Of a DNA stretch of 64,000 nucleotides, positions 5,501 through 37,350 are shown piece by piece; position 1 is the first letter of the stretch, and every line of letters starts with the position of its first letter. Below the pieces are notes generated by a model, which saw only the letters and a list, made by a program, of their open reading frames with translations, was not told the origin of the DNA and did no database searches. Source of the stretch: an uncultured Sulfurovum sp. (GTDB lineage: Bacteria > Campylobacterota > Campylobacteria > Campylobacterales > Sulfurovaceae); NCBI GenBank assembly GCA_902727855.1, contig CACVAS010000147.1, forward strand, positions 1 through 64,000, written 5' to 3'. A program made the translations under genes and the position numbers.

Positions 5501-7630
5501 GATTTGTTTTTGAATTTAAATACAACTCTTGTGTTGGTTCAAGATTACGGTAGTATGTGCCTCAGCTGTAGAAAGTGATTTAAATACAACTCTTGTGTTG
5601 GTTCAAGCTGTTGGTTATTTACCTAATGGTTGTCTATTGATATTTAAATACAACTCTTGTGTTGGTTCAAGAATCAAAATCATAAATGTCAATTTCTAGG
5701 TTCAAGATTTAAATACAACTCTTGTGTTGGTTCAAGTTTAACTGTTTTACCTAAACCCTTGGTAATACAATCATTTAAATACAACTCTTGTGTTGGTTCA
5801 AGAAGGTTTAATCCCTATATTCTTAACAATTACGCTATTTAAATACAACTCTTGTGTTGGTTCAAGACTATACAATCTATAGGAAGATTGATGAGATTGT
5901 AATTTAAATACAACTCTTGTGTTGGTTCAAGCATTCGAGATGGATTTAACTTTAACCCATTACCGAATTTAAATACAACTCTTGTGTTGGTTCAAGGTTA
6001 AAAATAAAATACTAAATGAATTTGAAACACTATTTAAATACAACTCTTGTGTTGGTTCAAGCTACTGCTATAATTGGTGTATAAGTTGGTTGAGAGACAT
6101 TTAAATACAACTCTTGTGTTGGTTCAAGTAATATCCGTAATCAGACTGTAGTACCGCTGTCCAATTTAAATACAACTCTTGTGTTGGTTCAAGTAAGCAA
6201 TCTATTTTTACAGATGGAATACCCACGTAATTTAAATACAACTCTTGTGTTGGTTCAAGCTTACATTGTTTGACCCCAAGTTTAGAAATCTTATATTTAA
6301 ATACAACTCTTGTGTTGGTTCAAGAAGCTGGGTGAACGTGCTAAGGCGATTATATTATCATTTAAATACAACTCTTGTGTTGGTTCAAGAAAGAAGCACT
6401 ACACACTTCCTTAACATAATCGTGAATTTAAATACAACTCTTGTGTTGGTTCAAGGGATAAAACACCAATCCATTTCAATAACTCTATGATATTTAAATA
6501 CAACTCTTGTGTTGGTTCAAGGAAAAATCACTGGAACAATCAACAAAACTTAAAATAATTTAAATACAACTCTTGTGTTGGTTCAAGTAAATGCAAATAC
6601 AGAAGCAATAAACCTGTCTAAATTTAAATACAACTCTTGTGTTGGTTCAAGACACCTAGAGACGCAATAGGATATATATATTACAGATTTAAATACAACT
6701 CTTGTGTTGGTTCAAGATACCTAAATTAATTATGTCTAAAACAGTAACATGATTTAAATACAACTCTTGTGTTGGTTCAAGGTGGTGCAAATGAGCCTAT
6801 GAATGATATTGAATGGTAATTTAAATACAACTCTTGTGTTGGTTCAAGGACAACGGAGCTATTCATAGTGATTTGATAAATAATAATTTAAATACAACTC
6901 TTGTGTTGGTTCAAGTCATTCTAGATGGATTTAACTTTAATCCATTGCCAAATTTAAATACAACTCTTGTGTTGGTTCAAGTAAACTGCACCGATGCTAC
7001 CAAGGACTGCTGTTTGATTTAAATACAACTCTTGTGTTGGTTCAAGTTGTATATTTAAAGATAATGATGTTCTATTATGTGATTTAAATACAACTCTTGT
7101 GTTGGTTCAAGTAGAGGGTAGATTAATAGGTGAGTCACTATATAAATTTAAATACAACTCTTGTGTTGGTTCAAGCCTAACTCTAACATGATACTTTTCA
7201 CTTACTTGTGGATTTAAATACAACTCTTGTGTTGGTTCAAGCATTTTAAATGTGATGAATCGTGGTATGGTCATACTATTTAAATACAACTCTTGTGTTG
7301 GTTCAAGACTCTATTAAAACGAGACAAACATACAGTAACTATATTTAAATACAACTCTTGTGTTGGTTCAAGACATTAAGACAGACCACAAAAAAACTGC
7401 AATAGAATTTAAATACAACTCTTGTGTTGGTTCAAGTCCACCGATCACCGATTGTATGCGTGCCGCTTCTATTTAAATACAACTCTTGTGTTGGTTCAAG
7501 TGAATTTAAGCATAACAGAGCAGTATCAACAAGATAATTTAAATACAACTCTTGTGTTGGTTCAAGTTGCTATTGCTACAGGTACGAGTCCAAAGGGTGA
7601 ATTTAAATACAACTCTTGTGTTGGTTCAAG
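2567..7630 (-). CRISPR. CRISPR array, ~78 x 30-bp repeats with ~77 spacers (34-37 bp)
   Basis: Repeat ATTTAAATACAACTCTTGTGTTGGTTCAAG (sense probably CTTGAACCAACACAAGAGTTGTATTTAAAT). The only degenerate copy I saw is at the leader-distal end, 2567-2596. Manual count. Confidence 0.98.
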
Positions 7631-33285: not shown

Positions 33286-33708
33286 TTAGGGCTGTCCTGC
33301 TCTAACGCAACGAACGTAACTGCTATTGGTCTTACTGTCGTAGCCCTGATTGCCGCTGTAGAAATTGACGCGCCACGCAGAGCTGGTATAGCCAACATAG
33401 GTAGTAGACGACCAATAAAAGCTAGACGCAGTGTTTTCAAATACTGTTGTATCTATACTAGGATTTATTCTACCATCATTCACTAAAGAAGTAAGTTCAT
33501 TTAGATTTGGTAACCTCCAGTCATTGTGTCCATCTAAACTTAAGTTTTCACAATGCATAATGGCAGATGTCCATGTCATAGAAGAGCCTATGGCATCATC
33601 TTGCCATTGTAGTCCTGTACTACTGTCTGCAACAATGTTTCCACTCTTACTAAAGTCTGCATAGAGTGCCAGACTAAGCCCTAGCATAATCAAAAGGATT
33701 TGTTTCAT
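33286..33708 (-). CDS. DUF1566 (Lcl_C) secreted protein; DGR target 2 (VR2)
   Basis: LQWQDD...WRLPNLNELTSLVNDGRINPSID...FYWSSTTYVGYTSSAWRVNFYSGNQGYDSKTNSSYVRCVRAGQP. Confidence 0.88.
   Translation of the reverse strand: MKQILLIMLGLSLALYADFSKSGNIVADSSTGLQWQDDAIGSSMTWTSAIMHCENLSLDGHNDWRLPNLNELTSLVNDGRINPSIDTTVFENTASSFYWSSTTYVGYTSSAWRVNFYSGNQGYDSKTNSSYVRCVRAGQP
33295..33431 (-). repeat. DGR variable repeat VR2
   Basis: Aligns with 34944-35084 and 35622-35762; differences confined almost entirely to first/second positions of AAY-type codons. Confidence 0.85.
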
Positions 33709-34774
33709 TTAATACTCCTACTTTTTGGTTTAGGTTGTAGCTGTTTGCGTGTTTACAATGACCCACAAATGAAGCTTTGACAGATAAAAACTGTTTTATC
33801 TCTAAAAGTCTCATATTTCCTTTTTGGTTTTCGTATGCGTTTAAGTATTTGGCTTTTTTCTTTTTGAAGTTGTTAACTACTCTTTGTCGTACTAGCGTGT
33901 AAGTTGGACGAATGATATACCCTAAAAAGTCTAAACCTTCACTGTGTTTTTTAAGCTTGGTATCTTCTCTTAGTGTAAGTTTTAGCTCTTTTTGTAGGTA
34001 CTCTTCTATCTCACTTTTTAGGTAGGTAAGCCTCTCTTTACTTTCATCAAACAATACAAAGTCATCTACGTAACGTATGTATCTTTTTACTTTTAGTGTA
34101 CGTTTTACAAAATTGTCAAAGTCATTCATATAGACATTAGCAAAAAACTGGCTCGTGAGATTGCCTATGGGCAGTCCTCTATTTTTAGGTATCTTAAAGA
34201 GTGTTTTATGTGGAGGAAGTAGTGCTAACTTACTTTTATCTCCTTTAAAGTAGTAGCTCTTTGTAGGGTCATGAAAGATGATTTTGTTGCTTAAGTAAAG
34301 TACAGAAGAGACATCTAGGTTAGAACCTATGACCTCTTGTTTTATCTTGTCTAGTAGTATCATCTTTTCGAGATTATAAAAAAACCCTTTGATGTCAAGC
34401 TGTAGGTAGTAGCCATCTGCTGTTTGTCTCATATAGCGTTGTGCTTGGCTTACTGCTTGGTGTGTACCTTTGGCTTTTCTGTTGTTATAGACATCATGTA
34501 TAAACTTACGTTCAAAGAGTGGTTCTAGCTGTCCTACAAGGATGTGGTGTACTACCCTGTCCTTGAAATCCGAAGCAAAGACTTCTCTAAGCTTAGGTGA
34601 AGTGGTAAGAAAACAGAGTGATTTTCCTATGTTGTACCTTTTACTGTTTAGTTCGTCATGTATTTTCCAAAGGTTTTCTATGAGGTTTTGTTCAAATTTC
34701 AGAGCATTTATGGTGTTACGTTTGTTTCTACGGCATGCTAGGTATGCTTTGTAAATGTTTTGAAATGTGAACAT
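33674..34774 (-). CDS. DGR-type reverse transcriptase
   Basis: RYVDDFVLF (YxDD) and GLPIGNLTSQ (DGR signature [I/L/V]GxxxSQ); LDFLGYIIRP. Confidence 0.93.
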   Translation of the reverse strand: MFTFQNIYKAYLACRRNKRNTINALKFEQNLIENLWKIHDELNSKRYNIGKSLCFLTTSPKLREVFASDFKDRVVHHILVGQLEPLFERKFIHDVYNNRKAKGTHQAVSQAQRYMRQTADGYYLQLDIKGFFYNLEKMILLDKIKQEVIGSNLDVSSVLYLSNKIIFHDPTKSYYFKGDKSKLALLPPHKTLFKIPKNRGLPIGNLTSQFFANVYMNDFDNFVKRTLKVKRYIRYVDDFVLFDESKERLTYLKSEIEEYLQKELKLTLREDTKLKKHSEGLDFLGYIIRPTYTLVRQRVVNNFKKKKAKYLNAYENQKGNMRLLEIKQFLSVKASFVGHCKHANSYNLNQKVGVLNETNPFDYARA

Positions 34775-34803: not shown

Positions 34804-34892
34804 GTAGGGGGCGATTGCCATCGCACCAATTAAAATATGTAAAATGAATCAAATATATTTTATATATTGGTGCGATGGCAATCGCCCCCTAC
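34804..34892. repeat. 27-bp perfect inverted repeat (REP/MITE-like hairpin)
   Basis: GTAGGGGGCGATTGCCATCGCACCAAT at 34804-34830, exact reverse complement at 34866-34892. Confidence 0.9.
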
Positions 34893-34943: not shown

Positions 34944-35084
34944 ACTCTCCTGCTCTAACGCAACGAACGTAAAGGCTATTGGTCCTACTGCGGTTGCGCT
35001 GAAGGCCGCTGTAGAAATAGACGCTCCACGCATTGCTGGTACGGCCAACAAAGGTAGTAGACGACCAATAATAGCTAGACGCAC
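34944..35084 (-). repeat. Third VR/TR-homologous block in DGR template position
   Basis: Homologous to VR1 and VR2; not part of a target ORF; lies between avd-like gene and RT. Confidence 0.85.
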
Positions 35085-35139
35085 CTCATAAGTACTCTAT
35101 TTATGCTACTGCTTGTAGAAATGCCACAAGCGTAGACTC

Positions 35140-35574
35140 TTATGCACATAGGCAAGAGTACCGCACAGTGAATGTGGCACGCTTTACAGAGGTCATCTGT
35201 AAACTCTGGCTCTTACTCACTCCCCCCAAGTTTCTTTGACTAGATTTTAGCCAAGCTTGAGCTTGTTTGCACACTGTGACACTCAGTAAAGAGCTATGCT
35301 CAAACTGCTTAAAGTCTTTAAACGCTTTTAGCTCCTTGCTAAGCTGTATGAGCATCTTCATCTCTTCACATGTGTCACGAAGCCTAACTAAGTCATCTAC
35401 TTTATTTTGGCTAAGGTTCGCACGACTTATGGCAAAAAGTAGAGCTTTGCTCTTTTGTCTTAAATCTACACCCATGGTGTACTTGTGGTACTTCTCAAAC
35501 CCTCTTACTATCTGCTCCATATACACAGCCAAACTTAGTGCCGATTTATATATGGGTAGATTTTCATTTCCCAT
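35140..35574 (-). CDS. Avd-like DGR accessory protein (four-helix bundle)
   Basis: MGNENLPIYKSALSLAVYMEQIVRGFEKYHKYTMGVDLRQKSKALLFAISRANLSQNKVDDLVRLRDTCEEMKMLIQLSKELKAF; DGR context. Confidence 0.85.
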   Translation of the reverse strand: MGNENLPIYKSALSLAVYMEQIVRGFEKYHKYTMGVDLRQKSKALLFAISRANLSQNKVDDLVRLRDTCEEMKMLIQLSKELKAFKDFKQFEHSSLLSVTVCKQAQAWLKSSQRNLGGVSKSQSLQMTSVKRATFTVRYSCLCA

Positions 35575-35619: not shown

Positions 35620-37290
35620 TTACTCTCCTGCTCTAACGCAACGAACGTAAGCGCTATTGGGCTTACCGTTGCGGTACTGAGAGCCGCGGTAGAAATAGAC
35701 GCCCCACGCATCGCTGGTACGGCCAACATAGGTAGTAGACGACCAATAATTGCTAGACGCACTGTTTTCAAACACAGAGCTTATAGCTGGACTTATGGAA
35801 CCATAATCGCTAAGTCCTACTAACTCTTTTCTTGTAGGTAGCCTCCAGTCACCATGCCCACCCAACCTTAAGTTACTACAATACGTGGTTGCTGTATCTC
35901 CAGAAGTATCTGTACACTTACTTGTGTCTTGCGTCTGTCCATTTTGCCCTCTACAAATGTCGTAGTTGGTTGTAGTGATCCATTGTTTTCTCATGCTAGA
36001 GCTACTGACGTTAGCATCATCTGCCCACTCTAGCCCTGTGATGTGGTCTGTGACTATCTGCGTAGCATCATCTCTTGTGTAGCTAGGGGTGACACCTCTT
36101 TGGTAGTCACCATCGTCATTGGCTACATACACTGTAGTCTGTCCTGTCTTCTTAAGCCCTACAGTTTCCACCACATCTGAAATGTTTACCGTTACCTCTT
36201 GTGTACTCTCATTCCCATATGCATCTGCAGCCGTGGCTGTAAAGGTGTAGACCTCTTTTGTCTCAAAGTCTGGTGCAACTTTAAAGGTGACTACCCCTGT
36301 AGTAGCATTGACATCAAAGTCTGCACTGTCTCCTCCACTAATGCTGTAGCTAATGGCACTCGCATCTGTGGCTTGTAGGGTAATGGCATCTGTTTGGTTT
36401 TCTGCTACGGTGCTGTTGTCCTCTGAGGTAAATGTGGGTGGAGTGGTGTCTACTACATTTACAGTTCTGGTCACTTGTAGTGCTTCATTACCAGAGGTAT
36501 CATTTACATCGTAGTACACATTGTATGTGCCTACAACATTGATATTGACTTCTGTAGTGTTGATGACTATATTTCCTGTGAGGTTGGTATCATAGTTATC
36601 TGTCACTGTAGCACCTAGTTCTGTGTAAGGGGTATGTACTTCTATGGTTTGTGGGTTAGCCCCAGTTAAGGCTATGACTGGTGGGGTGCTGTCTACTATG
36701 GTTACGTTTCTCTCTACTGTGGCAGTGTTGTTATCCATATCTGTAACACTGTAGGTGAGTGTTTGTGTTCCTAGAGTCTGTGTTTCTACACTTCCTGTGA
36801 TGATGATGCTAGATGTGAGGTTTCCATCTAGTGCGTCTATGGCTGTGGCACCTAGTTCTGTGTAAGTCGTGTTGACTTCTAGTGAGAGGCTTGCATCACC
36901 TACAAGGGTCAGCACTGGAGAGGTAGAGAGTATGGTGTCTAGTATCTCTTGTATCTTAGCTGTACTGTCTACCTCTGTGGTATCCAGTAAAGCTATAGCC
37001 TCATTGAGTGGCGTAAGTGTTCTGCTGTCTACACCTGTTACTTGAGCTTGGGTGTAGTCTACTATGCTAGGGGTGCTTGTGTTACCATCACTAGAAGCAT
37101 ACGCTTCTATCTTGTCAAGAGCCAATTCTTTTTGGCTTGGAGAGCTTAGTATAAAGTTAGTCATAATACCCATGAACGCATGTAGTTGTGCATCAGTAAG
37201 GTTATGCTCTTCTGATGACGCTTGCAGTGATGTAAGCGACGTAGAAGCCAAGAGAAACATAGACAGTAGTAGTTTTTTGAAATTGAACAT
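35620..37290 (-). CDS. Large secreted DUF1566 protein with DUF5011/cadherin-like domains; DGR target 1 (VR1)
   Basis: Signal peptide; repeated PVIALTGANPQTIEVHTPYTELGATVTDNYD; C-terminus SNYWSSTTYVGRTSDAWGVYFYRGSQYRNGKPNSAYVRCVRAGE. Confidence 0.9.
   Translation of the reverse strand: MFNFKKLLLSMFLLASTSLTSLQASSEEHNLTDAQLHAFMGIMTNFILSSPSQKELALDKIEAYASSDGNTSTPSIVDYTQAQVTGVDSRTLTPLNEAIALLDTTEVDSTAKIQEILDTILSTSPVLTLVGDASLSLEVNTTYTELGATAIDALDGNLTSSIIITGSVETQTLGTQTLTYSVTDMDNNTATVERNVTIVDSTPPVIALTGANPQTIEVHTPYTELGATVTDNYDTNLTGNIVINTTEVNINVVGTYNVYYDVNDTSGNEALQVTRTVNVVDTTPPTFTSEDNSTVAENQTDAITLQATDASAISYSISGGDSADFDVNATTGVVTFKVAPDFETKEVYTFTATAADAYGNESTQEVTVNISDVVETVGLKKTGQTTVYVANDDGDYQRGVTPSYTRDDATQIVTDHITGLEWADDANVSSSSMRKQWITTTNYDICRGQNGQTQDTSKCTDTSGDTATTYCSNLRLGGHGDWRLPTRKELVGLSDYGSISPAISSVFENSASSNYWSSTTYVGRTSDAWGVYFYRGSQYRNGKPNSAYVRCVRAGE
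35622..35762 (-). repeat. DGR variable repeat VR1
   Basis: 3' end of target 1; homologous to VR2 and 34944-35084. Confidence 0.85.
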
Positions 37291-37331: not shown

Positions 37332-37350
37332 CTCTCTCTCTCTCTCTCTC
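37332..37350. repeat. Dinucleotide tract (CT)9C upstream of DGR target 1
   Basis: ctctctctctctctctctc, ~40 nt upstream of the ATG at 37290. Confidence 0.9.

Follow-up and report, generated by a model that had tools for sequence, protein, structure and literature searches.

A VR-like block in the template slot of a Sulfurovum-like DGR: a template repeat probably overwritten by an adenine-mutagenised copy of itself

Our results strongly favour the idea that block III, an adenine-mutagenised, VR-like sequence at positions 34944-35084 (minus strand) of the window, the 64,000-nucleotide stretch of DNA analysed here, is the former template repeat (TR) of a diversity-generating retroelement (DGR), and that a copy of this TR mutagenised at its adenines has been written over it. 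As it stands, the window element is a degenerate, template-less DGR and not a complete one. An overwritten TR leaving a locked DGR had been one of two outcomes considered in the original prediction, and it is supported by the TR-slot flanks and leader of the block, by changes at ancestral adenine sites only, and by the finding that no variable repeat (VR) was templated from III.

The DGR belongs to a Sulfurovum-like campylobacterote, whose assembly comprises 3.1 Mb in 170 contigs, with an estimated completeness of 100 and an estimated contamination of 9.07%. Its components all lie on the minus strand, in the order target 1 with VR1, Avd, block III, reverse transcriptase (RT), and target 2 with VR2. 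Target gene 1 (35620-37290) encodes an Ig-like/cadherin surface protein with a C-terminal Lcl_C domain, and its 3' end is VR1 (35622-35762), which has the tail TTTGATTTTTGA. Target gene 2 (33286-33708) encodes a 140-aa Lcl_C protein and ends in VR2 (33292-33430), from which the TTTGA-rich tail is absent; a PDB sequence search with the short target protein gave no match. The three copies of the repeat in the window (33292-33444, 34945-35097 and 35623-35775) are 81-87% identical. As originally stated, the window holds no other copy, and the genome has one more, likewise VR-like, on contig C36, located 3'-terminally in an Lcl_C-type ORF of 113 aa. Targets with a C-terminal variable repeat are thus the two Lcl_C genes of the window and this remote one.

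The protein components show no sign of decay. The RT (33674-34774, minus strand; 366 aa from its ATG, in an ORF open from 34852) matches RVT_1 (E 3.2e-18), carries the motifs IGNLTSQ and YVDD, and is of the DGR type, its homologues being located in canonical DGRs; no RT relatives were found among viral contigs. Its best PDB match is 8ub7 (E 3.5e-37), which is named only 'Reverse transcriptase'. The Avd accessory protein (35140-35574, minus strand) is recognised by the profiles bAvd (E 1e-07, below the Pfam gathering score) and DivGenRetAVD (E 8e-06), and is 47-76% identical to the Avd of related DGRs. At columns invariant among homologues, deviations number 0 of 101 in the RT (15 homologues) and 0 of 15 in Avd. 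Since neither protein has decayed, the template loss appears to be recent, and the element, judged from its sequence, appears jammed with its enzyme intact.

Block III itself does not have the composition of a template. At the variable columns of the window it carries A in 12 of 36, within the range of the VRs (12-16 of 36), whereas in most homologous TRs the count is about 27-32 of 32-36; the original description of the block as not A-rich and as a third VR-like copy is therefore borne out. Among III, VR1, VR2 and the C36 copy, the aligned core contains 30 variable sites, 16 at codon position 1, 14 at position 2 and none at position 3, so that the earlier observation of a constant third base and varying first two bases holds, and the targets do end in repeats that change at codon positions 1 and 2. 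When III is taken as the template, only 19 of its 58 mismatches to the other three copies (33%) fall at its own adenines, and no copy, used in the same way, attains 50%. Our results clearly show that III has templated neither VR1, VR2 nor the C36 VR, in agreement with the original argument that its mismatches lie mostly outside its own adenines.

In order to place these figures, we compared 20 related RT loci from Campylobacterota genomes, many of them labelled Sulfurovum. In most of these loci the order is avd-TR-RT and the TR immediately precedes the RT. All of about 20 have an A-rich sequence in the TR slot, and typically 80-95% of TR/VR mismatches fall at TR adenines. One locus, L098, was considered as a poorly A-biased TR and rejected, as it proved to be an ordinary TR once flanks were excluded. 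The two closest relatives, L030 and L032, have TRs that each carry A at 30 of 33 window-variable sites, showing that the A-rich template inferred in the original prediction was right in kind. Their TRs both have A at 46 sites, where III has 27 A, 7 G, 6 T and 6 C, and VR1 has 26 A, 9 G, 4 T and 7 C. At the 78 non-A sites common to both TRs, III agrees at 72, as do VR1 and the C36 copy. Lineage-wide changes aside, III differs from the relatives' TRs only at TR adenines: each of the three changes found in III alone starts from an A, and substitutions in III are concentrated at ancestral A rather than non-A sites (Fisher p 1.3e-5). Since ordinary decay is not restricted to adenines, changes limited to ancestral A sites point to a mutagenised copy.

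The surroundings of the block, in turn, are those of a TR. III lies exactly in the expected slot, in the order Avd, leader, block, RT. Directly 5' of the relatives' TRs there is a conserved stretch, ACTGTGCGG...TTGCC...CATAA..., and the window has the same stretch directly upstream of III, at 35086-35169 (minus strand). This RNA leader, defined by alignment and helix covariation, is predicted to fold into an 8-bp outer helix (GGTACTCT/AGAGTACT) enclosing an inner hairpin. Across 17 sequences, 93.4% of cells are paired with 37 double-sided changes, compared with 41-58% and 3-11 changes in controls slid by 1-3 columns; the imperfect alignment of a few rows works against this result. No curated Rfam family matched the leader. 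Instances with strong covariation accompany Campylobacterota DGR TRs in the window, at L021:7358-7448, at L030:5664-5746 and at other loci, and the structured leader is possibly a general cis element of this Campylobacterota DGR group. Compared with its homologues, Avd has a reading frame that runs on for about 25 aa beyond the usual end and enters the leader (35140-35250, minus strand); this extension adjoins a run of six G, and in L032 the corresponding stretch is in a different frame.

Between block III and the start of the RT lies a dispersed, MITE-like hairpin repeat (34804-34892, strand not assigned) with 27-nt arms (GTAGGGGGCGATTGCCATCGCACCAAT), related copies or arms of which occur on many contigs of the genome; against Rfam it gave only sub-threshold microRNA matches. 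We do not claim it as an inactivator, as L030 and L032 have comparable spacers with inverted repeats together with A-rich TRs. A similar hairpin is found between avd and RT of a second, paralogous DGR of the same genome, on contig C107 (L021 2897-9618), which has an intact A-rich TR and two Lcl_C targets, its TR having been relocated together with the leader upstream of avd. In addition, a (GA)n/(CT)n repeat (37332-37349, strand not assigned) stands beside a -10-like TATACT upstream of target 1. Such (GA)n tracts lie directly upstream of this motif before both large DGR targets, the one in C107 (L021 2843-2854) being shorter, and they may possibly form a phase-variable promoter of the diversified surface protein.

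The other outcome allowed by the original prediction was a true TR located elsewhere and acting in trans, with III as a spare VR-like copy. In this regard, the whole 3.1-Mb draft assembly was searched with III, with the conserved 3' segment (allowing 3 mismatches at most) and with an A-rich TR as inferred. No A-rich cognate TR was found, and apart from the three copies in the window and the one on C36 the only match was the DGR on C107, which is clearly different. The latter served as a positive control, with 19 of 20 TR/VR mismatches at TR adenines, and its TR was rejected as a source for the window VRs, from which its differing constant bases are absent. A contig missing from the assembly, or other strains, could carry an intact TR, and an unassembled, plasmid-borne or unbinned template would be compatible with a draft of 170 contigs with such estimated contamination. 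Action on remote VRs is plausible given the C36 target on a separate contig, and undecayed RT and Avd would also fit a still-working element with an unseen TR. Against this stand the lack of a cognate A-rich copy despite the estimated completeness, and the presence of the TR leader and TR slot at III, by which the replaced TR is the cis one. On balance, we consider a template acting in trans improbable.

Draft or metagenome assembly can cross repeats, and the VRs and the TR have constant stretches in common (as long as 29 nt in the case of VR1 and C36), so an assembler might have stitched a VR allele between TR flanks. At the 5' junction, however, the distance from the leader flank to the first mutated codon is just 10 nt (TGCGTCTAGC), no constant stretch within the core exceeds about 18 nt, and III and a VR match exactly over 29 nt at most, at the 3' end. 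With common stretches this short, any assembler using k > ~30 needs real reads that connect the leader with the mutated core and the 3' flank. Moreover, III is identical to no assembled VR. A simple assembly chimera is, on these arguments from the sequence, very unlikely. Finally, that III, in the template slot with its leader, is a working template for an RT that mutates bases besides A is scarcely credible, as just one third of the mismatches fall at its adenines, almost every variable site is an A in related TRs, and an A bias is seen both with closely related RTs (70-79% identical) and, according to the survey PMC8144416, in nearly all DGRs.

Overwriting of the TR by a mutagenised copy could have followed either of two routes: a mutagenised cDNA meant for a VR would have been inserted into the TR, or homologous gene conversion of the RecA type would have copied a VR into the TR. 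Both give the same product, and in our judgement the first is slightly ahead. No donor of III was matched among the assembled VRs. By hand count, III has in common 13 of 31 variable sites with VR1, 14 of 31 with VR2 and 7 of 31 with C36. With VR1 the agreement is greater in the 5' half; as a signal this is weak and post hoc, and since recurrent Tyr codons could account for it, no donor is claimed. Mutagenic homing would now be locked, as a transcript of III could do no more than propagate III, with fresh mutations at the adenines that remain.

The 3' ends of the repeats provide a candidate for a direction signal. A single-base pattern is seen at the repeat end (L021, L030-L051; window positions 33294, 34947 and 35625), VRs having GGAC and TRs GGAG or GGAT. 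In loci that have kept an A-rich TR, GGAG ends 14 of the 17 distinct TRs and a GGAT-type sequence the other 3, and 29 of 31 VRs end in GGAC. Both exceptions (GGAG) belong to one locus, G030:C41, whose RT lacks its first 309 residues. This locus (L083, ~5646-6500) has kept an A-rich TR and leader, and between its TR and the RT remnant there is a small inserted ORF that by eye resembles a four-helix-bundle protein. In BPP-1, mismatches between the 3' ends of VR and TR set the direction of transfer (PMC3240598), and because of this analogy we infer that the base is a candidate part of an IMH/IMH* direction signal. In the window, the 3' end of III (GGAGAGTGA) has the TR-type G at 34947 (minus strand), VR2 has the VR-type C at 33294 (GGACAG) but no TTTGA-rich tail, and at 35625 VR1 has not C but the TR-type G (GGAGAG). 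The C36 VR also ends in GGAG, as TRs do, so that at the putative homing signal the base is of the TR type in two of three recipients (VR1 and C36). Two VRs of G026, for which no RT was found, likewise end in GGAG; orphan VRs with GGAC exist as well, and GGAG is therefore no general mark of loss.

DGRs rely on a master template that is kept safe while copying errors enter the targets. A TR bearing the signature of adenine mutagenesis would mean that this one-way flow can fail, and the locus offers a concrete place for asking what keeps the flow one-way. We propose, tentatively and as something we would rather doubt than assert, that a DGR can bring its own activity to a stop: with mutagenised cDNA homing into the TR and recipients gaining the TR-type IMH* base, successful variants would be frozen and RT and Avd left intact. 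If recurrent, such self-overwriting would be a natural off-switch, and also a cost against which the IMH/IMH* distinction would guard. The GGAC versus GGAG/GGAT signal and the structured RNA leader are both candidates that can be tested directly.

The element resembles that of the Bordetella phage BPP-1 (avd-TR-brt, with mtd as target) in having the TR between Avd and RT, in A-to-N substitutions and in a candidate distinction of the IMH/IMH* kind between VR and TR 3' ends (PMC3240598); the structural match of the window RT to 8ub7 may be counted with these likenesses. It differs in that the window TR is no longer A-rich and is preceded by a structured leader, and in that the putative IMH-like discriminator is here one conserved C (VR) versus G/T (TR). 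A survey blind to base bias counted only 7 genuine DGR clusters with <75% of mismatches at adenine (PMC8144416), and the window element is like them in its adenine share. In Treponema denticola, VR target genes are left over without RT or TR (PMC4891356), and frozen VRs persist there as here after function is lost, whereas the window locus retains RT, Avd and the TR slot. In the degenerate DGRs of Thiohalocapsa PB-PSB1, MITE-like arrays took the place of a TR or RT, or genes were pseudogenised (PMC10907252); the loss of key machinery and the MITE-like repeats near TR/RT are shared, but in the window RT and Avd are intact and the TR is replaced by a mutagenised copy. In the DGR literature that we searched, we found no description of a TR slot occupied by a VR-like sequence. 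Taken together, degenerate DGRs are already known, and a TR overwritten by a mutagenised copy with RT and Avd intact, as the sequence suggests for this locus, would differ from the cases described.
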